Shown here in pieces: positions 39,766 to 47,971 of a DNA stretch of 64,000 bases; the stretch's first letter is position 1, and every line of letters begins with the position of its first letter. Position numbers and translations under genes: made by a program. Below the pieces are notes generated by a model. That model was not told where the DNA came from. It ran no database searches and saw only the letters and a program-made list of their open reading frames with translations. The stretch comes from Jannaschia sp. CCS1. GTDB lineage: Bacteria; Pseudomonadota; Alphaproteobacteria; Rhodobacterales; Rhodobacteraceae. The stretch spans positions 4,211,501-4,275,500 of the forward strand of contig NC_007802.1 of assembly GCF_000013565.1 (NCBI RefSeq). Reading direction: 5' to 3'.

Positions 39766-41106
39766 ATGGCACCCGATGGACACGACACAAAGGGAGATGA
39801 GCTTCCGGCCGGCGCCTCCCTGTGCCATGGCCAATACACGATTGAGAACTACCTGAATGCTGGTGGTTTCGGCGTGACATATCTTGCCCGCGACAGTCTG
39901 GGGCGACGCATCGTCATCAAGGAGTGCTTTCCAAGCGCGATGTGTTTTCGCTCCAACCAAACCGTGTGCGTCCGCTCACAGGGCAACACCATCGAGTTCA
40001 GCACAATTCTGGATCTGTTCGAGAAGGAAGCGCGCGCCCTCGCGGCGATGCAGCACCCCTATATCGTCGGCGTGCACCAGTACTTCCGCGACAACGGGAC
40101 CGCCTATATGGCGATGGATTTCGTCGAGGGGGAGACGCTTCTAGATATCATTGAGACCGATCCCGGTCGGTTAACCCCTGATTTCGTGAAAAAGCTGCTG
40201 ACACAGCTGCTTCATGCCGTGCGCTATATCCACCGCAACGACATCCTGCACCGCGATATCTCACCGGATAACATCCTGATCGATGAAGGCGGCTTGCCTG
40301 TTTTGATTGATTTCGGTGCAGCACGGGAGGACGCGACGAAGGTCAGCCGCGTGCTGTCACAGGTGCTGACGGTCAAGGATGGGTATTCGCCGCAGGAATT
40401 CTATCTGGCTGGCAGTCAACAGGGCTATGCCAGTGACCTCTACGCGCTTGCCGCAACGTTTTACCACGCCATCATGCGGGAAGCACCTGCCAACAGCCAC
40501 ACGCGGCTGGCGGCTGCGGCGCGTGAAAGGCCCGATCCGCTGTCCGAACTGCCGCAGATTGAAGGGTATGAGCCCGGGTTTCTCGCAGCCGTTTCTCAAT
40601 GTCTGAGCCTGTTCCCGAAAGATCGCCTGCAATCGGCGGAAGCTTGGCAGGAGGCGATTGACGAGGACGTTCGTCAAAAGAAATTGCTGCATGAAGCGGC
40701 ATGTGATCAGGCGATTGATCGATCCGTGGCGGCGCTGGTCAAGGATTTCTTTACAGATTTCAAGCCAAAGTCGTCGGAGCGATCCAAACCCAAGGCGTCT
40801 GAGGGGCAATTCAACGGCAGTAAAGCGACCTCTGCCAGATCCGCGCAGGTGCCGCCCGCTCCGGGGCCGTTCGATGAAGCCTTCTACGACGATATGGAGA
40901 TCGAGGAAACTGAGACACCAAAGGCGGAGCCATGCCCCGATTTCATTGGCCCCCCCGCACCAATCCTGTCGCCTATTGATAGGGTTCGATTAAAGCACGC
41001 GAGGCCGAAACCGAAGGAGCCAGAACCACCCGCCGCCAATGGGTGGTTGCCGCTTTTAAGCCGACGTTTTCTCGTCGGTGACGATACATCTGAGGAGTCA
41101 GTATGA
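39766..41106 (+). CDS. Ser/Thr protein kinase (Hanks type), first gene of the kinase-dynamin operon
   Basis: A 446-aa protein with an intact kinase domain at about 24-290: Gly loop LNAGGFGVTYLA (30-41), Lys52 in VIKECFP, Glu88 in FEKEARAL, catalytic HRDISPDN (162-169) and DFGAAR (182-187). The activation loop is rich in Ser and Thr (KVSRVLSQVLTVKDGYSPQE). The last 120 residues are a low-complexity, Pro/Glu/Lys-rich tail with no membrane segment, so the kinase is cytoplasmic. Stop overlaps the FHA gene start (ATGA). Expected to phosphorylate FHA or GTPase partners in the operon. Ribosome-binding site weak. Confidence 0.92.
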   Translation: MAPDGHDTKGDELPAGASLCHGQYTIENYLNAGGFGVTYLARDSLGRRIVIKECFPSAMCFRSNQTVCVRSQGNTIEFSTILDLFEKEARALAAMQHPYIVGVHQYFRDNGTAYMAMDFVEGETLLDIIETDPGRLTPDFVKKLLTQLLHAVRYIHRNDILHRDISPDNILIDEGGLPVLIDFGAAREDATKVSRVLSQVLTVKDGYSPQEFYLAGSQQGYASDLYALAATFYHAIMREAPANSHTRLAAAARERPDPLSELPQIEGYEPGFLAAVSQCLSLFPKDRLQSAEAWQEAIDEDVRQKKLLHEAACDQAIDRSVAALVKDFFTDFKPKSSERSKPKASEGQFNGSKATSARSAQVPPAPGPFDEAFYDDMEIEETETPKAEPCPDFIGPPAPILSPIDRVRLKHARPKPKEPEPPAANGWLPLLSRRFLVGDDTSEESV

Positions 41107-41852
41107 GTATGAACCGTTTCCGCAACGTGGCCGTCAGGATGCGTCCAAAATCCCTCATCGAAGACCCTCAGACGGATGGGGCAGACGACGCTCAGGCATC
41201 CGCATCCGCCGAGGTGGCGCAACCACGCCGCATCGTGAATACCGCGCCCCGGACGCCGCCGAAGCGCAACATTTGGGATCTGGAAGATCGGGTAGCAGAC
41301 GATCTTCCAGAGCCATCCCCAGCGCCTTCGCCGGCAACACCGCCCCCGGCACCAACCGTAAAACATCAGGAGCCACCCGCTCCTGCAACGGGCGGACGGG
41401 CGAAAACGCGCATCCTGGGGTTCCATGCCGAAGCCCTCGGGTCAGTCGGTGATGCCACTGAGCACCCCCCCAAGGCCGGTCCGGTCTTTCCAGCCGGCTT
41501 TCTTGTGCTGACCGAGGGGCCTGGCCGCGGCGCTTACTTCGCGGTCACAACGCGGGTGTCTACCATCGGGCGCGGCACCGATCAGGACATCGCCCTCGAC
41601 TTCGGGGATGAGAGTATCTCTCGCACCGGCCACGCGTCGGTGATGTTTGACGCAGAGCAGAACCGATTTTTCCTTGGCCATGGCAATAAGGCCAACGCAA
41701 TCCGGCGCAACGGCTCGCCGGTCCTGGCAACCGAAGAAATGATGCACGGCGACACGATCCGCATCGGCAAAACCTCTTTGCGGTTCCACGCCTTCTGCGG
41801 TGCTGATTTCACCTGGGATCATGAGGACGAAGGGGATGTCGCCCATGACTGA
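41103..41852 (+). CDS. FHA domain protein
   Basis: A 249-aa phosphothreonine reader. The first 130 residues are disordered and Pro-rich (for example EPSPAPSPATPPPAPTV); the FHA fold spans about 140-240 with VSTIGRGTDQDIALDF (Gly-Arg), SISRTGHASVMFD (Ser and His) and RRNGSPVLATEEMMHGDTIRIG. The N-terminal tail has Thr residues that the kinase could modify. Overlaps the kinase gene by 4 bp and the phosphatase gene by 8 bp. Likely links kinase output to the GTPases. Confidence 0.9.
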   Translation: MSMNRFRNVAVRMRPKSLIEDPQTDGADDAQASASAEVAQPRRIVNTAPRTPPKRNIWDLEDRVADDLPEPSPAPSPATPPPAPTVKHQEPPAPATGGRAKTRILGFHAEALGSVGDATEHPPKAGPVFPAGFLVLTEGPGRGAYFAVTTRVSTIGRGTDQDIALDFGDESISRTGHASVMFDAEQNRFFLGHGNKANAIRRNGSPVLATEEMMHGDTIRIGKTSLRFHAFCGADFTWDHEDEGDVAHD

Positions 41853-42732
41853 TGCGCTGAAAAGTGAGTATGACGTCGCCTCGATTCTCTCCGTCGGGGC
41901 GCGGGAGCGGCAAGAGGATGCGGTAGCCGTCGCCTTCCCTGATCGCACGGACCTCGGCTTTGCAGTTCTGTCAGACGGTATGGGCGGCCACGCCGCCGGC
42001 GACCTTGCCAGTCGCGCCATCGTGGCGGAAATGTTCGCGTCTCTGACCCTGCGCGAGGCCACTGCCGCGACCCCGATCCCCGAGATTCTATGCGGCGCGG
42101 TTCGTCGCGCGAACGAAGGTGTGAAAGCGTGTATCGAGGCCAGTCCAGATCACGGCGGCATGGGCGGAACCGTCGTCGCTACGCAAATTTCAGGCGACAA
42201 ACTGCATTGGATCTCTGTCGGCGATTCGGTTCTTTACCTGTTTCGTGACCAAAAGCTGAGACGCCTGAATGCGGATCACTCGATGGCCCCGCAGCTTGAC
42301 CTCATGGTGGCCAAGGGTGCCATGACCCAGGCCGAGGCCGAGGCCCATCCGCAGCGCAACTGCCTGACCTCGGCCATCACGGGCGGGCCTATCGACGAAG
42401 TGGATTGTCCGGACCGACCCATCGTTCTGGAGCACGACGATATCGTGCTCCAGGCCAGTGACGGCCTGCAATTTTTGCCCGACCCGATTATCGAAGCCCT
42501 CCTTCTGCGCGCACGCAACAACAGCAGCCAGCAGATTGCGCGCGATCTGATGGACGCGTTGGATACCCTGAATGACCCTGAGCAGGACAACACGTCCATT
42601 GTGGTGATCCGCGCCAATGCTCCCGGCCGCCAATCACGGAAAGGGATACTCGGCCGCGGATCGGGTGCCATGGTGAAAGCACTCCGTCGCGCCGTGAAAC
42701 CCGCCGTCGTCCCGGCACCGGGACAAAGCTGA
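41845..42732 (+). CDS. PP2C-family Ser/Thr protein phosphatase
   Basis: A 295-aa metal-dependent phosphatase with ARERQEDAVAV (metal Asp), LSDGMGGHAAGDLASR, GMGGTVVATQ, WISVGDSVLYLF, LQASDGLQFL and EQDNTSIVVIR, that is, all PP2C motifs. The C terminus has a basic tail (RRAVKPAVVPAPGQS). Start chosen at 41845; 41836 is an alternative. It should reverse the kinase's phosphorylation. Kinase, FHA and PP2C also occur together in type VI secretion regulation, but no tss genes are present here. Confidence 0.92.
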   Translation: MTDALKSEYDVASILSVGARERQEDAVAVAFPDRTDLGFAVLSDGMGGHAAGDLASRAIVAEMFASLTLREATAATPIPEILCGAVRRANEGVKACIEASPDHGGMGGTVVATQISGDKLHWISVGDSVLYLFRDQKLRRLNADHSMAPQLDLMVAKGAMTQAEAEAHPQRNCLTSAITGGPIDEVDCPDRPIVLEHDDIVLQASDGLQFLPDPIIEALLLRARNNSSQQIARDLMDALDTLNDPEQDNTSIVVIRANAPGRQSRKGILGRGSGAMVKALRRAVKPAVVPAPGQS

Positions 42733-42734
42733 CG

Positions 42735-43898
42735 ATGCACGCGCTGCACCCCAACTCAGAAGACGCCCTTGCGCAGCTTGGATTGCTGGCGAAGTCTGAC
42801 AGGCTTCCGGCGCGGGAAGCGGCGCGGTGCGCGCAATTGGTCGATGTGTTGCGGCGGCCAGCTCGCGTCTGTGTTGTCGGGCAAGACGTGAACGTCATCC
42901 GCGCGATGCTGACCGCCCTGATCGGTGAACACGCCACGATCGCAAGCGACACTCTGCCCCCGGCTCTGGAATTGGCCCATGGTGCCACGGTCCGAACGCG
43001 CCTGACCCTGGAGGACGGCACGACCCTGAACCACGAAGGCGCACCGACCGATGATCTGCTAACGCAAGCACCGCTGTTCATGCAGCTTGAGTTACCAAGT
43101 CCCTTGCTGCGCGATATGTCCATCCTTGTGCTGTTGCTCGACAGAGATCCGAGAGTGCATCGCCCGGCCTTGTCTTGGGCCGCGCGGCGCACGGAAATTG
43201 CCGTGTGGTGCACCTCGCGATTCTCCCGGTTGGACGCGCAGATCTGGTCCCACGTCCCGCAGCGGTTGTCGCATCACGCTTACCTTGTGGAGACGCGATC
43301 CGGCGATGTGACTGCCGCTGCACGAGGCAGCTTCACTGACCATTTGCATCTGCCAATCGGGCCAGATCCGACCCTCCGCGATCTTGAACCCCTGATTGCG
43401 CGCTTAAGTGACGATATCGTGGACGGACGCTTGGCCGATCTCGACTCTGCCCAGATGCTGCTGCATCGGCTTGGCCATCTGCAACTACGTCCGACGACGG
43501 CCGGCGAAACTGACCCGGTTGGTGCAACAAGACCGTCCGAAGACGTTGCCCGCCTGCGCCGCATCCTGTCCGAGCCAGTCTTGTTTCTGCAACGACGCGC
43601 GGGCGCGCTGGCCGAAGACCTCGCATGGGCGGACGTTGAGGGGGACGATGATTGGCCAGCCAAGATCCGCAGTGGTTGCCTGGCGACGGCCGAAGGGCTT
43701 CGCGATCGCGCGCAGTCCTGGCCCGACGACATGTCCGTCCTCCAAAGTCTGAGCGCCTTCACAGAGGAAGTGTGCGACGCCTTCTTGTTGCTTGAGTTCG
43801 AAAACGGAGCAGACCAGGCGAAAGACGCCGCAGCCCTCCTTTACCAAATGCGCTGCGAAATCGAGCGGGTACTTTTTCCGCAACCGGAGACCCCATGA
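42735..43898 (+). CDS. Dynamin-like pseudo-GTPase (degenerate P-loop), unknown function
   Basis: A 387-aa protein that I read as a catalytically dead relative of the dynamin-like protein encoded next. VCVVGQDVNVIRAMLTALIGE (about 45-65) aligns with VTLIGQVKAGKTSLVNALAGG of the neighbour but lacks the Gly-Lys-Ser/Thr needed for GTP. LPSPLLRDMSILVLLLDRD resembles the G3 region without DxxG. The C-terminal half is predicted helical. It begins 2 bp after PP2C and ends with ATGA overlap into the GTPase gene. A regulatory partner for the active GTPases is plausible; homology is my inference. Confidence 0.6.
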   Translation: MHALHPNSEDALAQLGLLAKSDRLPAREAARCAQLVDVLRRPARVCVVGQDVNVIRAMLTALIGEHATIASDTLPPALELAHGATVRTRLTLEDGTTLNHEGAPTDDLLTQAPLFMQLELPSPLLRDMSILVLLLDRDPRVHRPALSWAARRTEIAVWCTSRFSRLDAQIWSHVPQRLSHHAYLVETRSGDVTAAARGSFTDHLHLPIGPDPTLRDLEPLIARLSDDIVDGRLADLDSAQMLLHRLGHLQLRPTTAGETDPVGATRPSEDVARLRRILSEPVLFLQRRAGALAEDLAWADVEGDDDWPAKIRSGCLATAEGLRDRAQSWPDDMSVLQSLSAFTEEVCDAFLLLEFENGADQAKDAAALLYQMRCEIERVLFPQPETP

Positions 43899-45967
43899 GA
43901 CAGGACAATAAAATCTTACCGTCCGACAGCGAAGCTGCGATGCTGGCGACCACATGGCAGGGCCTTTCGCCCTTGGCGCGTGACATTCGCAAGTTGGGCC
44001 AGGCTCTCGACCACCTCAAACGGGCGGGTGACAATTTCCACGAGGGACAGATTGACACGCTGCGCCGGACCTTGCGCGAGTTTGAGCCGTCGGTGACACT
44101 GATTGGCCAGGTGAAGGCGGGCAAGACTTCCCTTGTGAATGCCCTGGCGGGCGGGCGCGATCTGCTCCCCTCCGACATCAACCCGTGGACCTCTGTCGTC
44201 ACGTCGCTCCACCAATCGCCGATTCTGACCGGAGCAAATGAGCGCGCGAGCTTCAGCTTTTTCAGTGAGGACGAATGGACTTCGCTTCTGCGGTCCGGAG
44301 GGCGCGTCGGGGAGCTGGCCAGCCGCGCCGGAGCCGATAGTGAACTGGAAAAAGTGCGCCAACAGCTCGACGAAATGCGGCAGGCCTCGCGCCAAAGGCT
44401 TGGCGACCGTTTTGAGATGCTGCTGGGGCAAACCCACGATTATCGCTACGTCGACGCCGAGTTGGTGCAGCGATACGTTTGTCTGGGGGATGCCACCGAT
44501 CAAGGCGAGCCCGCAGATCAAAAGCAGGGTCGGTTCGCAGACATCACGCGATCTGCGGACATATTTGTCAGCCGTCCCTCCCTTCCTGTTCCGGTGTGCT
44601 TGCGGGACACGCCGGGCGTGAACGACACATTCATGGTGCGCGAACAAATTACGCTGAAAGCGATCCGCGGCAGTCGCCTTTGTGTGGTGGTGCTGTCCGC
44701 TCATCAGGCGCTTTCGAATGTCGATCTGGCGCTTGTGCGGATGATCGCCAACGTGCCCGCCCGCGATCTCATTATCTTCATCAACCGGGTCGACGATCTT
44801 ACGGACCCGGCCCAAGAGATCCCGGAGATTGAGCGCAGCGTTCGAGCCACGCTCGCGCGCTACAACGTGTCTGAGGACGCCCAACTCCTGTTCGGCAGTG
44901 CCAAGTGGGCCCTTGCGGCCGCATCGGGGAACCTGAACCAGATGGGACAGGCAAGTGCCGAAGCGCTATTGAATTGGGCACGGTATCAGGCTCTGCACGG
45001 GACGCTCGACAAAGATCCCCTCGGCATGGTTTGGGCCCTGTCCGGCCTTCCGGCGCTTGGCGCCGCTATCTCGGACCGCGTCATCGCCGGAGAAGGCGCT
45101 GAGGTGATCGCCGGGGTCGCCAGCGGCGCCCGCAATGCGATTGGAGCGATTGCAGCCTCTCGCGCCATTGCCGAAAAGCGCGTGATGGAGGGGCAGTTGG
45201 CGCAGGTCGATGGTGCCGCCACAATAGCGACCGTCGATCAGATCACCGCAGATGCGGACGCCCGGTTCGCGGCAGACCTGGACCACGTGTTGAAGGGCCT
45301 GGATCTGCGCCTGCAAAAGGCCCAGGACAGTTTCGGCGCGCGCGCGACTGATGCCTTGATTGAGCATCTCGAAACCGTGGGCGAAGACGTCGAGTGGACG
45401 TATGATCCCACCGGCCTGCGGCTGCTTCTGGAGTCGGGCTACAACGTCTTCACCGCCAAAGCCCAGAAGCTCGCAGAGGATACATATCTGCGCAACGCAA
45501 CTGCAACGCGACAGCTGTTTCTTGATAAGTTCGGGCTAAGTGATGTCGGATTTGACCTTGAACCGCCCGCAGTGCCGCCCCCGCCTGTGCCGGTCATGTT
45601 GGGTCAGACGATCGCGCTCGACATCAAGGGCAGTTGGTGGACTCGCTGGTGGCGCCGCAAACGCAGCTACATCGCCTACGCTGACGAATTCCGGGCCTTG
45701 ATTGACGCTGAAATCGCGCCGGTCCTAACGGCACTAAGGGAAGATCACGCCGAAGGACACGTCCAGGCCCTACGAGATATCCTGACCCGTTTCACCACCG
45801 AGCAACGCGACGTGATAGTCGGTCTGGCTGGCCAGGATCGATCCGATCTCAACCGGCTGCGGCGCGAAACGGCGGAGATTGCCGACGCGAAAGCGGAAGA
45901 ACTGGACAGCGCGCGCGCGCAACTCGCCTCGATTGGGACTGGCGACATATTGAGGGACCGCACATGA
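43895..45967 (+). CDS. Dynamin-like GTPase
   Basis: A 690-aa large GTPase. G1 is GQVKAGKTS (71-79), G2 Thr lies in NPWTSVVTSL, G3 is RDTPGVND and G4 NRVDD. Helical stalk regions follow. A Trp/Arg-rich patch (GSWWTRWWRRKRSY, about 579-592) may insert into or lie on the membrane. The C-terminal segment is a long helix. Bacterial dynamin-like proteins often come as pairs and remodel membranes. Here a second GTPase gene follows with 4-bp overlap, and a kinase, phosphatase and FHA gene precede it. Confidence 0.85.
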   Translation: MRQDNKILPSDSEAAMLATTWQGLSPLARDIRKLGQALDHLKRAGDNFHEGQIDTLRRTLREFEPSVTLIGQVKAGKTSLVNALAGGRDLLPSDINPWTSVVTSLHQSPILTGANERASFSFFSEDEWTSLLRSGGRVGELASRAGADSELEKVRQQLDEMRQASRQRLGDRFEMLLGQTHDYRYVDAELVQRYVCLGDATDQGEPADQKQGRFADITRSADIFVSRPSLPVPVCLRDTPGVNDTFMVREQITLKAIRGSRLCVVVLSAHQALSNVDLALVRMIANVPARDLIIFINRVDDLTDPAQEIPEIERSVRATLARYNVSEDAQLLFGSAKWALAAASGNLNQMGQASAEALLNWARYQALHGTLDKDPLGMVWALSGLPALGAAISDRVIAGEGAEVIAGVASGARNAIGAIAASRAIAEKRVMEGQLAQVDGAATIATVDQITADADARFAADLDHVLKGLDLRLQKAQDSFGARATDALIEHLETVGEDVEWTYDPTGLRLLLESGYNVFTAKAQKLAEDTYLRNATATRQLFLDKFGLSDVGFDLEPPAVPPPPVPVMLGQTIALDIKGSWWTRWWRRKRSYIAYADEFRALIDAEIAPVLTALREDHAEGHVQALRDILTRFTTEQRDVIVGLAGQDRSDLNRLRRETAEIADAKAEELDSARAQLASIGTGDILRDRT

Positions 45968-46815
45968 CCGATGCAGCAGCGACCCCCACCGCTCCACACA
46001 GCCAAAAACCGCGCGTTCTGCTCCTCGGTGAATTCAGCGCAGGCAAAAGCACTCTGGCCAACATCCTGCTTGGCTCCGCGCAGTCGCCGGTGCGGGTGAC
46101 CGCCACGCAGATGCCGCCGATCTGCTATGTGGCAGGCGTGGATCAACCGATGCGTGTGACGCGAGACGGGAACGAGATCCCGGTCGACATGGTGGATGTA
46201 CCGCGTGTCCCCCTTGACGGAACACGGTTCATTCGCGTGCCTTTCGATGCTCCACTTCTGGAGCAGGTTGATCTTGTCGACATGCCTGGCAGCTCGGACC
46301 CCAACATGTCGGTCGATATCTGGAACGACCTCTTGCCGCTGGCCGATATTGTCCTTTGGTGCACACCGGCAACGCAGGCTTGGCGACAATCGGAGGCCGC
46401 GCTTTGGGACACGCTGAAAAAACAAGTTCAAGACCGAAGCCTGCTGTTGCTGACCCGCATCGACAAGATTGGCAGCACATCTGACCGCGATCGCGTCATG
46501 GCGCGTGTGACGCAGGAAACGCGTGGTCTGTTCCGCGCCGTCCTGCCAGTTTCCCTTGTCGGACTGGAGGGAGCGCCTGCATCCATCAGTTCACCGGACC
46601 TGGCAGTCTTGGTGACCGCACTCCAAGATGTCATTTTGAACCCGGATTTGCCCGAGCAAACCCCCGTACAGCAAGAGCCCGCCTCGGCACAGGCAGCGGT
46701 CCAAAGCGCACCTCCACGTAAACCCAAGGTCAGTCCACGGCGGGTTAGTGCACTCGACGCTGGTGCTGCGCGGCCAAGGGCACGTCGCCAACAGGCCGGG
46801 GATCGACTGATATGA
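45964..46815 (+). CDS. Small dynamin/Era-like GTPase
   Basis: A 283-aa GTPase with G1 GEFSAGKST (22-30), Thr in VTATQMPP, G3 DMPGSSD and G4 TRIDK. The last 70 residues are a Pro/Ala/Arg-rich tail with several Arg-Arg or Lys-Pro clusters, which could bind membrane lipids or DNA. Overlaps its neighbours by 4 bp on each side. Probably the partner of the large dynamin-like protein. Confidence 0.85.
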   Translation: MTDAAATPTAPHSQKPRVLLLGEFSAGKSTLANILLGSAQSPVRVTATQMPPICYVAGVDQPMRVTRDGNEIPVDMVDVPRVPLDGTRFIRVPFDAPLLEQVDLVDMPGSSDPNMSVDIWNDLLPLADIVLWCTPATQAWRQSEAALWDTLKKQVQDRSLLLLTRIDKIGSTSDRDRVMARVTQETRGLFRAVLPVSLVGLEGAPASISSPDLAVLVTALQDVILNPDLPEQTPVQQEPASAQAAVQSAPPRKPKVSPRRVSALDAGAARPRARRQQAGDRLI

Positions 46816-47183
46816 GCGCCCAGATGACCTCTGAAGCGCTGGCCGAGTTCCGGGTGCAGGTACCGGCGTGTCAGCTGGCTCTGTGGAGCGACATTCGATC
46901 CGGTACGGTCTTGGCCGTCGACGGAACGCTCGACCATCCGCAGGAGTATCTTGATGCGTTCAGCTCCATGGCGGCGCAAGCTCTGTCTCTGCCCGGCCCG
47001 CGGAGCGACGAGGCAGCTTGTACCTTTGCCGCGAATGCGACGGGTCTGCATCTGTTTGTCACCGGGGCGGCGATACCCGGCGTTGCACTAACCTGTGTTA
47101 TGGCCCTGGACGCAGATGTTGATCAAATCGAAGACGCGGCTGTCTCGTTCTTGTCGTCCGTTGACCCCGCAGGGATGGCGTGA
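46812..47183 (+). CDS. Small protein, possibly roadblock/LC7-like
   Basis: A 123-aa protein of unknown function. Its core (CQLALWSDIRSGTVLAVDG, then an amphipathic helix DAFSSMAAQALS, then GLHLFVTGAAIPGVALTCVMALD) has the beta-alpha-beta order and spacing of roadblock/LC7 domains, which act as GTPase partners in bacteria (MglB). That would suit its place after two GTPase genes, but similarity is only by eye. It has no membrane segment. Confidence 0.5.
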   Translation: MSAQMTSEALAEFRVQVPACQLALWSDIRSGTVLAVDGTLDHPQEYLDAFSSMAAQALSLPGPRSDEAACTFAANATGLHLFVTGAAIPGVALTCVMALDADVDQIEDAAVSFLSSVDPAGMA

Positions 47184-47971
47184 TGCAGACCTCGGCCGTC
47201 GTTCACGACATTTTGCTTGCAACCGCCTCGAAAGGGCGCGTCGCAAGAGATCTGTCCAAAGTAGGTGGCCAAGACGCCATCCGGTTTCTGGCGACGGAGA
47301 TTGATCGCACAATGCTACCATGCCGCCTGCGTGCGATATTTGGAGACGGGACATCCGTCCACTTTCTCGTGCGAAATCGCCGGCTGCATGGCGTCGGAGC
47401 GGACGGCAGTCAAACCCTTCCGATTCAATTCGCTGACGGAAAATTGAGCGCTGATCTGGCGCTGGATCTCGTCCAATGGATCAGTGACCTGAGTGCTTCG
47501 GTTGGATTGAACCAGATCATGCGCGATGATCTCTTGCCGGACGATGATCTGTCGTCTCTCGGCATCTCGTCCGCCCGTCTGGCGCTGGCCGCCGGACTTG
47601 ATCTGGAGCCGACCGCACAGCCCGATCTTCAGGACCGGATCCGTCAGTTTATTGACGTTGATCCATCTCGTATCCAGGCCGCGTTCCTGATGGCGGAGGA
47701 CGAGGTGTCGGTCATCCATGGCTCCGACCACGCCGTCGAGCGGCAAACCGAAACGGCGTTAGATCTGCTGGCCCATGTCACGGCAGACAATACGCCGCTT
47801 GCGAGCCTGCTTGAAACCGAAGGTCTGCTGCTTCTACCGTATCCATGTGACACCAATGGGTGCATGATAATTGCTGGGTCGCTTGGGTTGGTATTCCTTA
47901 TCATCGCCGAGGCTACGACAGCGGCTGATGCATTCCGTTGGTGGCAATCTGGAACTCCGCGCACACCTTAG
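47183..47971 (+). CDS. Hypothetical protein, last gene of the kinase-dynamin operon
   Basis: A 262-aa protein that I do not recognise. The start is ATG 47183, or GTG 47180, which would overlap the preceding stop by 4 bp. Moderately acidic, mainly mixed alpha/beta, without signal peptide. A C-terminal stretch CMIIAGSLGLVFLIIAEATTAADAF is hydrophobic enough for one membrane helix or a buried strand. A weak inverted repeat (GTAACC at 48081 and GGTTAC at 48098) follows downstream. The operon position is the only clue to function. Confidence 0.6.
   Translation: MQTSAVVHDILLATASKGRVARDLSKVGGQDAIRFLATEIDRTMLPCRLRAIFGDGTSVHFLVRNRRLHGVGADGSQTLPIQFADGKLSADLALDLVQWISDLSASVGLNQIMRDDLLPDDDLSSLGISSARLALAAGLDLEPTAQPDLQDRIRQFIDVDPSRIQAAFLMAEDEVSVIHGSDHAVERQTETALDLLAHVTADNTPLASLLETEGLLLLPYPCDTNGCMIIAGSLGLVFLIIAEATTAADAFRWWQSGTPRTP

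Follow-up and report, generated by a model that had tools for sequence, protein, structure and literature searches.

A conserved eight-gene operon joins a bacterial dynamin pair with kinase, FHA, PP2C and predicted roadblock-type genes

Introduction

Bacterial dynamins are mostly known as pairs. Eukaryotes and MglA/MglB provide the best-known examples of membrane GTPases controlled by roadblock and longin proteins. The conservons of Streptomyces are conserved small operons in which a signalling gene stands together with a roadblock gene and a GTPase gene; the GTPase is Ras-like, the signalling gene is histidine-kinase-like, and no dynamin, FHA or PP2C genes are known from them. PpkA, PppA and Fha are the names of the genes of the threonine-phosphorylation pathway in type VI secretion. 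For LeoABC, we know of no kinase, FHA, PP2C or roadblock genes. A study on the dynamin-like proteins DLP1 and DLP2 of Campylobacter jejuni reports tetramerisation as the trigger of GTPase activity and of lipid binding in vitro, and presents a role of the pair in membrane repair as the authors' speculation (PMC6104087).

Here we analyse an operon from Jannaschia sp. CCS1 located in a stretch of 64,000 nucleotides, referred to as the window. The original prediction for this locus stated that its author knew of no described system with this composition. Our literature search, which covered mostly open-access papers and no preprints, agrees: the matches listed, as far as their accessible text goes, contain no description of kinase, FHA and PP2C genes combined with a dynamin pair and roadblock proteins.

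Results

The ORF list contains eight touching same-strand ORFs at 39766-47971 of the window (Table 1), just where eight genes overlapping or at most 2 bp apart had been described before. Neighbouring ORFs share 4 bp, except for genes 2 and 3, which share 8 bp with the start at 41845, and genes 3 and 4, which are 2 bp apart.

Table 1 Features of the operon in Jannaschia sp. CCS1 (window positions)
Feature	Position	Strand	Description
Gene 1	39766..41106	+	Hanks-type Ser/Thr kinase, 446 aa
Gene 2	41103..41852	+	FHA-domain protein with a long N-terminal region of low complexity, 249 aa
Gene 3	41845..42732	+	PP2C phosphatase, 295 aa from ATG 41845; GTG 41800 is an alternative start
Gene 4	42735..43898	+	Putative degenerate DLP2-like dynamin-family protein (pseudo-GTPase), 387 aa; gene 6 relative
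Gene 4 degenerate P-loop	42879..42905	+	Residues 49-57
Gene 5	43895..45967	+	Large dynamin-like GTPase, DLP1-like, 690 aa
Gene 5 WWxxWW motif	45635..45652	+	Residues 581-586
Gene 6	45964..46815	+	DLP2-type dynamin G domain and low-complexity tail, 283 aa
Gene 6 tail PRRV motif	46735..46746	+	Residues 258-261; short linear motif
Gene 7	46812..47183	+	Predicted Roadblock/LC7-fold protein, 123 aa
Gene 8	47180..47971	+	Two-part protein, 263 aa; probably roadblock/longin-like

A relative of gene 5 (E ≤ 1e-15) is present in 77 of 295 genomes of the family sample. The class and phylum samples gave 2 matches in 289 and 4 matches in 299 genomes, all from the same family; membership of the sampled genomes in the Rhodobacterales was taken from named relatives. 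Of the 80 named loci, 66 contain all eight genes in identical order, a number that describes this set and not all 553 gene 5 relatives, since the named loci are the best 80 of them ranked by gene 5 similarity. Of the remaining 14 loci, thirteen are truncated at a locus end, and in the other one gene 4 is split. Within the genus, the operon is found in 8 of 13 genomes, a patchy occurrence that argues against a housekeeping role; the full order is kept in all seven other genomes whose operon region was examined, and the intact unit sits at several different sites. The recurrence of the whole gene order exceeds chance. A search of genome contigs with gene 6 alone gave no match, while a search with the alignment of gene 5 did find relatives.

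Median spacing in the relatives reveals three coupled blocks, genes 1-2-3-4, genes 5-6 and genes 7-8, separated by median gaps of 99 and 69 bp. Gene starts in the relatives were taken from the longest ORF, so that gene overlaps there are upper bounds, and the largest spacing between genes 2 and 3 (9304) stems from a second PP2C gene in locus L150. An empty site was sought in four members of the genus that have a close relative of the M20-type gene lying downstream in the window; three of them lack the operon, and one (G848) carries it elsewhere. Within the 16.5 kb compared, the remaining genes that flank the operon in the window are not adjacent there, save a few weak matches, so that no clean empty site was seen in these four genomes. 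Gene 5 relatives occur in 18 plasmid records, all typed as non-mobilizable, and none was found in 50,697 phage records at 1e-10; an origin from a phage or a transferable plasmid was rejected on these grounds.

Gene 5, described earlier as a large dynamin-like GTPase, matches Dynamin_N in Pfam (5.4e-13), and the best PDB sequence for its profile is C. jejuni DLP1 (5owv_A, 9.8e-11). All its G motifs are kept, and the patterns for G1, DTPG and [NT][RK]xD are each found in 80 of 80 relatives. The WWxxWW motif is present in 72 of 80 relatives, its four Trp are invariant (15/15), and it is a candidate for a membrane-touching tip. Gene 6 had been called a small GTPase; it is a G domain of the dynamin family instead (Dynamin_N, 3.9e-11), with C. 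jejuni DLP2 as the best PDB sequence for its profile (5owv_C, 2.7e-18). This match is confined to the G domain (profile positions 19-231), and a low-complexity tail stands at the end, where P258 and R260 of the PRRV motif are invariant (30/30). The P-loop is found in 79 of 79 gene 6 relatives and a G4-like pattern in 66 of 80, the latter being a loose pattern whose count includes a stray weak match in locus L105.

Gene 4 has no Pfam match up to E=1. The best PDB sequence for its profile is again DLP2 (5owv_C, 2.1e-10), its profile aligns with that of gene 6 at 7.5e-28 across 212 columns, and a C-terminal region of ~150 aa completes the protein. The description of this protein as P-loop-less is correct for the window, where the motif is degenerate, but not as a general trait, since gene 4 carries a GxxxxGK[ST] P-loop in 49 of 78 loci. 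Judged from these comparisons, genes 4 and 6 are related, with gene 4 as the degenerate form, and the loss of the P-loop is a trait of particular lineages.

The original assignments of the first three genes are confirmed by Pfam, with Pkinase for gene 1 (2.7e-31), FHA for gene 2 (4.5e-07) and PP2C_2 for gene 3 (5e-07). Gene 1 contains the VIKE, HRD and DFG motifs; text patterns found HRD in 68 and DFG in 69 of 70 kinase relatives, and a loose one found the VIKE-type lysine in 58. Plain hydropathy predicts no transmembrane helix for gene 1, nor for 57 of the 70 relatives. Gene 2 reaches 18.5 bits (0.0014) against the VI_FHA (TagH) model, the cut-off of which is 120.25. Gene 3 matches the Stp1 model at 3e-41, below the cut-off of that model; its DGMGGH motif is kept in 75 of 76 phosphatase relatives, and a loose text pattern for DN[TA][ST] was found in 13 of 76. 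A search by eye for a conserved phosphosite in the N-terminal region of the FHA protein and in the tail of gene 6 revealed short motifs only, none of them with a conserved Ser/Thr.

In variant loci, some kinases have a transmembrane helix with an extension behind it, as judged from hydropathy. Locus L051 encodes a PBP-OmpA protein and two PilJ-domain proteins downstream of gene 8, and solute-binding-type proteins follow the kinase, FHA and PP2C genes in locus L069 and in Ruegeria conchae. These features provide a link to the envelope, but such envelope-type neighbours belong to a few variant loci and are absent from the window.

The suggestion that gene 7 might be a roadblock protein is borne out by structure prediction, although not by sequence models. 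Its single Pfam match is Prim-Pol (0.023, below the cut-off of that family), Robl_LC7 is absent from the 22 Pfam families matched by 61 members of the gene 7 family, and the genome as a whole contains no match to the Robl_LC7 model. Profile searches of Pfam and of the PDB gave nothing meaningful on roadblock for gene 7 or gene 8. The predicted model of gene 7 (pLDDT 91.5) has the alpha-beta-beta-alpha-beta-beta-beta-alpha order of the Roadblock/LC7 fold. A structure search with this model found 3kye (E 2.3e-05, TM 0.71), and all 50 matches listed are roadblock-type chains or Rag GTPases with such a domain, with MglB near the top. We assign gene 7 a predicted Roadblock/LC7 fold. Gene 8, formerly described as an unknown protein, has no Pfam match up to E=1, and its 60 family members yielded no meaningful Pfam family. 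Weak likeness to roadblock/longin proteins was found for its predicted model (pLDDT 88.1, pTM 0.69): the best Foldseek matches are Ragulator, Rag and Mon1-Ccz1 (lowest E 1.3e-03, low TM over the whole chain), and the structure matches listed are mostly roadblock/longin proteins. The C-terminal half has the helix and strand order of roadblock, the N-terminal half is perhaps roadblock/longin-like, and on the basis of this model gene 8 is probably roadblock/longin-like as well. The profiles of genes 7 and 8 gave no convincing match to each other.

In locus L060, a gene-6-type GTPase carries at its C-terminus a fused domain of the gene 7 type, with strong sequence support (i-E 1.6e-17). The C-termini of seven related GTPases showed a weak match to the roadblock domain (hhalign, E 0.011); five of them (without L055 and L056), combined into one profile, had a roadblock protein as best PDB match, also weak (E 0.081). 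Three related GTPase C-termini had no Pfam match.

The operon contains no tss genes and is not a type VI secretion locus. This agrees with the original prediction. The genome, however, does carry a type VI locus (VipB matches at C2:3.047 Mb) more than 1.1 Mb away from the operon (window at C2:4.21-4.28 Mb). A further set of an FHA gene and two kinase genes lies near C2:1.59 Mb with a PP2C-like ORF. Co-occurrence with VipB was counted for gene 5 relatives, not for whole operons. It leans in the direction expected for type VI control (odds ratio 1.75); however, VipB gave no match in 52 of the 77 genomes that carry a gene 5 relative, and the 25 genomes with both stand against 18.8 expected (p=0.064). 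For gene 5 relatives of at least 500 bits (61 genomes), 19 have VipB against 14.9 expected (p=0.18).

Discussion

We propose, with moderate confidence, that the operon encodes a self-contained machine for phosphorylation-gated membrane remodelling. Its dynamin pair would tether or repair the inner membrane when the envelope is under stress, and would be controlled by the kinase, FHA and PP2C proteins together with the roadblock proteins. Genes 5 and 6 could form the hetero-oligomeric pair, one DLP1-like and the other with a DLP2-type G domain, which would bind the inner membrane from the cytoplasmic side and tether or seal it. As gene 6 consists of little more than its G domain, the tetramer geometry of C. 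jejuni is not simply transferable. Gene 4, a copy of the DLP2 G domain that is losing its function or has lost it, stands in one coupled block with the kinase, FHA and PP2C genes and would most likely serve as an adaptor of their products or as a brake on the pair. The roadblock-type genes 7 and 8 might bind gene 6, probably at the tail, and control its GTP cycle or its position in the cell, comparable to the action of MglB on MglA and of Ragulator on Rag GTPases. Upon envelope stress the kinase would phosphorylate its partners, the FHA protein would read the mark and the pair would assemble, with PP2C resetting the system. Several weaker relatives among 40 hand-chosen stretches carry same-family dynamin/GTPase pairs without the adjacent kinase module, which means that not every such pair requires phosphorylation.

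More tentatively, as an idea that might well prove wrong, the operon could encode a dynamin under Rag-like regulation, in which roadblock proteins beside or fused to the G domain scaffold and time the pair, and the third copy, repeatedly a pseudo-GTPase adaptor, relays the kinase, FHA and PP2C signal. If this Rag-like reading were true, it would to our knowledge be the first roadblock-controlled dynamin and the first phosphorylation-gated dynamin machine in bacteria.

The original prediction had offered phosphorylation-controlled membrane remodelling, stress or phage defence, and polarity control; membrane remodelling, of the dynamin-pair type, is now the best supported, and the other two are less probable. 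In a defence system, infection would be sensed by the kinase, the roadblock-type proteins would act as sensors, and the phage would be stopped by the dynamin pair, which would reshape or disrupt the membrane. We regard such a function as unlikely. Patchiness in family and genus, differing sites of the intact unit and the presence of gene 5 relatives in plasmid records are defence-like; in addition, dN/dS of gene 8 is the highest of seven genes in 9 of 13 pairs (gene 2 left out), and PADLOC matches gene 1 to defence-system kinases (PD-T4-6, 1.8e-43) and gene 5 weakly to LeoA (4.6e-12). However, in our judgement any Hanks kinase or dynamin may give PADLOC matches of this kind, and genes 2, 3, 4, 7 and 8 have none. 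The lack of matches in the phage records likewise speaks against defence. The flanks of the 80 named loci point the same way: no defence gene was recognised in the representatives of their 30 widest clusters, which were inspected by eye.

Rather improbable, in our view, is control of polarity or cell elongation by a roadblock/GTPase switch of the MglA/MglB kind, which would position the dynamin pair or the elongation machinery. Such a switch would fit the predicted fold of gene 7, whose top structure matches include MglB, and an MreB-like gene (named by eye) is found downstream in 9 of the 80 named loci and also in L037 and L041; in seven of the nine it lies 200-235 bp past gene 8, and an MreC-like gene mostly comes next. 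Gene 6, however, is of the dynamin type and not Ras-like. Moreover, all nine loci fall into a single well-supported group (Silicimonas/Boseongicola and relatives, 14 rows) in the gene 5 tree, which was built by a quick method, and may therefore go back to one event; in the available stretches of the other 71 named loci no MreB-like gene was found. Coming from one group, the MreB neighbourhood is only a weak lead for elongation. Remote control of type VI secretion with the dynamins as passengers, suggested by the regulation of type VI secretion by kinase/FHA/PP2C triads (cf. PMC5995506), is very improbable, and such control in trans was rejected after the co-occurrence proved not significant.

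Returning to a stress-controlled dynamin pair at the inner membrane, the operon ties a dynamin pair genetically to a full phosphorylation circuit and to roadblock-type proteins, and thereby provides a defined set of candidate regulators. The lineages of gene 4 form a natural series in which a G domain turns from an enzyme into a pseudo-enzyme, and the operon bears on the attachment of roadblock/longin control of membrane GTPases to dynamins.

Compared with known systems, the operon resembles the membrane-tethering pair Cj-DLP1/Cj-DLP2 (5owv; PMC6104087), which likewise has DLP1-like and DLP2-like genes next to each other. It differs in a second, degenerate DLP2-like gene, in the reduction of gene 6 to little beyond the G domain, and in the association of the pair with kinase, FHA and PP2C genes and with one predicted and one probable roadblock gene. 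As in MglA/MglB and Rag-Ragulator, a GTPase gene stands beside a predicted roadblock gene, and the structure matches include MglB, LAMTOR and Rag, but the GTPases of the operon belong to the dynamin family and Pfam found no Ras-like gene among the eight. The conservons of Streptomyces similarly unite signalling, roadblock and GTPase genes, but with other kinds of signalling gene and GTPase. LeoABC likewise has several dynamin-type genes together; with a marginal LeoBC match (7.6e-04, PADLOC) next to the weak LeoA match of gene 5, neither likeness is strong. In the threonine-phosphorylation pathway of type VI secretion, genes for a kinase, an FHA protein and a PP2C phosphatase are neighbours as well, but the operon lacks tss genes and encodes an FHA protein that scores far below the VI_FHA (TagH) cut-off.

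Operon layout and conservation

The eight open reading frames of the original prediction were confirmed in their positions and lie head to tail, with overlaps of 4 or 8 bp at the junctions plus a single 2-bp gap. They encode a kinase, an FHA protein and a PP2C phosphatase (genes 1-3, the triad), a degenerate DLP2-like protein (4), a DLP1-like dynamin (5), a DLP2-type G domain (6), a predicted roadblock protein (7) and a probably roadblock/longin-like protein (8). Pfam identified genes 1-3 as kinase, FHA and PP2C, and genes 5 and 6 as dynamin-family GTPases; it gave no match for genes 4 and 8 and no meaningful one for gene 7. Further matches, to kinase-, FHA-, phosphatase- and GTPase/dynamin-type models, came from NCBIfam and PADLOC; no NCBIfam match lay above that database's cut-offs. 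In the 64-kb window neither tRNA genes nor Rfam families at the gathering score were found.

Location of the operon and of further loci in the same genome (G000; C2, contig holding the window)
Feature	Position	Strand	Content
Operon, genes 1-8	window 39766-47971	+	eight genes
Gene 2	window 41103-41852	+	FHA protein
Gene 8	window 47180-47971	+	probably roadblock/longin-like protein
L162	G000:C2:1586000-1605900		second signalling set, with PP2C-like ORF (by eye)
FHA match in L162	C2:1591979
Kinase matches in L162	C2:1597982 and 1600187
L163	G000:C2:3038000-3057900		type VI secretion locus; two adjacent VipB matches; neither kinase nor FHA matches at E<=1e-3

Gene 5 is single-copy in the window's genome and has relatives in 77 of 295 sampled genomes of the same family (E<=1e-15); the class sample yielded 2 of 289 genomes (E<=1e-10) and the phylum sample 4 of 299 (E<=1e-8), all of this family. 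In a GTDB-based contig collection 553 stretches encode gene 5 relatives, and the best 80 of these 553, all Rhodobacterales by their record titles, are the loci compared here. Genes 1-8 stand in the same order in 66 of these best 80; the other 14 comprise 13 cut by the locus end and L129, with gene 4 in two pieces. Within the genus gene 5 occurs in 8 of 13 genomes, and all seven besides the window's own have the full gene order. Flank comparison covered roughly 3 kb on the upstream side and 4.4 kb on the downstream side (5.9 kb in the case of the window); the window's flanks were common to none of these seven, and shared flanks defined at least four operon sites (L168/L169; L170/L172/L173; L171; the window), L174 having only a short downstream match in common with L170/L172/L173. 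Around the 80 loci the flanking genes vary widely: ABC-transporter ATPases form the widest cluster, reaching 19 loci, and the next reaches 9. Due to the conserved order and the differing sites and flanks, the operon is a coherent unit kept whole at different places. In Leisingera aquaemixtae the unit is also found on a plasmid, with genes 4, 7 and 8 publicly annotated as "hypothetical protein".

An alternative order, genes 5-6-7-8, a second dynamin, a further GTPase (gene-4-type in L072) and then kinase-FHA-PP2C, is seen in L072 and in L160 from Ruegeria conchae, the latter with two solute-binding-type genes behind. In L069 kinase-FHA-PP2C lies on the opposite strand. In L054-L060 and L064-L068 the stretch covered contains dynamin/GTPase pairs, at times as tandems of two or three, and no kinase module.

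Dynamin-type genes

The best PDB sequence for the gene 5 profile is Campylobacter jejuni DLP1 (5owv_A, 9.8e-11), and for those of genes 6 and 4 it is DLP2 (5owv_C, 2.7e-18 and 2.1e-10). Genes 4 and 6 are related over the G domain (profile comparison, 7.5e-28, 212 columns); the match of gene 5 to either is confined to the P-loop surroundings. The P-loop is kept in all 80 gene 5 and all 79 gene 6 relatives. Gene 4 has it in 49 of 78 loci, two of the 29 without it (L088, L107) being truncated at the end of the locus, and on the gene 5 tree (76 rows including the window, 5 dropped) its state changes at least three (starred branches) to four times. Since the motif is present in gene 6 and DLP2, we infer repeated loss in gene 4 as the natural reading. 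The DxPG string is present in 8 of 78 gene 4 relatives compared with 76 of 80 for gene 6. Because dN/dS is 0.14-0.40 in six P-loop-less pairs (dS >1 in several pairs), gene 4 is still under purifying selection, and together with the repeated P-loop loss and the rarity of DxPG this makes it look like a pseudo-GTPase with a job rather than a dying gene.

Spacing in relatives couples gene 4 tightly to gene 3 (median -4 bp, maximum 7), and a median gap of 99 bp then separates it from gene 5. This makes gene 4 a member of the signalling block and is our reason for proposing it as the adaptor. Genes 5-6 and 7-8 have median spacings of -4 bp, with maxima of 49 and 52, and the median gap between genes 6 and 7 is 69 bp.

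Signalling genes and possible envelope links

Kinase relatives keep HRD (68/70), DFG (69/70) and a VIKE-type lysine pattern (58/70); PP2C relatives keep DGMGGH (75/76), the search pattern DN[TA][ST] matching just 13 of 76. In the low-complexity N-terminal part of many FHA relatives of gene 2 a short (R/K)xIWD(L/I)-like motif recurs, the pattern [IVL]W[DE][LIM] being found in 32 of 76 relatives.

No transmembrane helix is predicted in the window's kinase; one is predicted in 13 of 70 relatives, and long-kinase variants carry an extension behind it. Gene 8 is followed in L051 by a PBP-OmpA protein and two PilJ-domain proteins, in L069 (with a Pfam match below the cut-off) and in R. conchae the triad precedes solute-binding-type proteins, and L042 has a LysM protein close to an additional PP2C gene, some kilobases past gene 8. 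Kinase architecture and neighbours together point to envelope signals, at least in these variant loci.

Predicted roadblock genes

The predicted structure of gene 7 (pLDDT 91.5, element order H-E-E-H-E-E-E-H) matches Roadblock/LC7 structures (best E 2.3e-05, TM 0.71), among them Streptomyces 3kye, MglB, LAMTOR and Asgard roadblocks. The Pfam Robl_LC7 sequence model missed all 61 members of the gene 7 family and recognised no gene in the whole genome. The gene 8 model (pLDDT 88.1, pTM 0.69) repeats the roadblock element order in its C-terminal half, and Ragulator, Rag and Mon1-Ccz1 proteins top its Foldseek matches weakly (best E 1.3e-03). Several related loci that lack the kinase module encode gene-6-type GTPases with an additional C-terminal domain, which in L060, one draft genome, is clearly gene 7 (i-E 1.6e-17); five other such C-termini, pooled, had a roadblock protein as best PDB match, not significant alone (0.081). 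These domains are the best evidence that roadblock protein and dynamin G domain may work together.

Proposed function

Because genes 5 and 6 are homologous to the C. jejuni DLP1/DLP2 pair, the best reading is that a gated dynamin pair would tether or repair the inner membrane. The C. jejuni pair is reported to bind lipid in vitro and has been described as a tethering machine (PMC6104087).

Anti-phage defence is the main rival: the unit occurs patchily and at changing genomic locations, and gene 8 evolves fast, ranking first in dN/dS among the seven genes compared for 9 of 13 pairs. Support for polarity control comes from the predicted roadblock fold and from an MreB-like gene that neighbours the operon in 9 of 80 loci, but all nine fall within one group. 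The MreB-like gene lies 200-235 bp after the operon in L085, L090, L092, L093, L097, L109 and L132, mostly with an MreC-like gene next, also directly after it in L037 and L041, and 4-5 kb further off in L091 and L108. Control of type VI secretion by the operon is not supported by the test of co-occurrence across genomes.

Among the literature matches listed there is no description of such a unit. Each kind of component, the dynamin pair included, is already known; what is undescribed, as far as searched, is a dynamin pair joined both to a phosphorylation circuit and to roadblock-type proteins.
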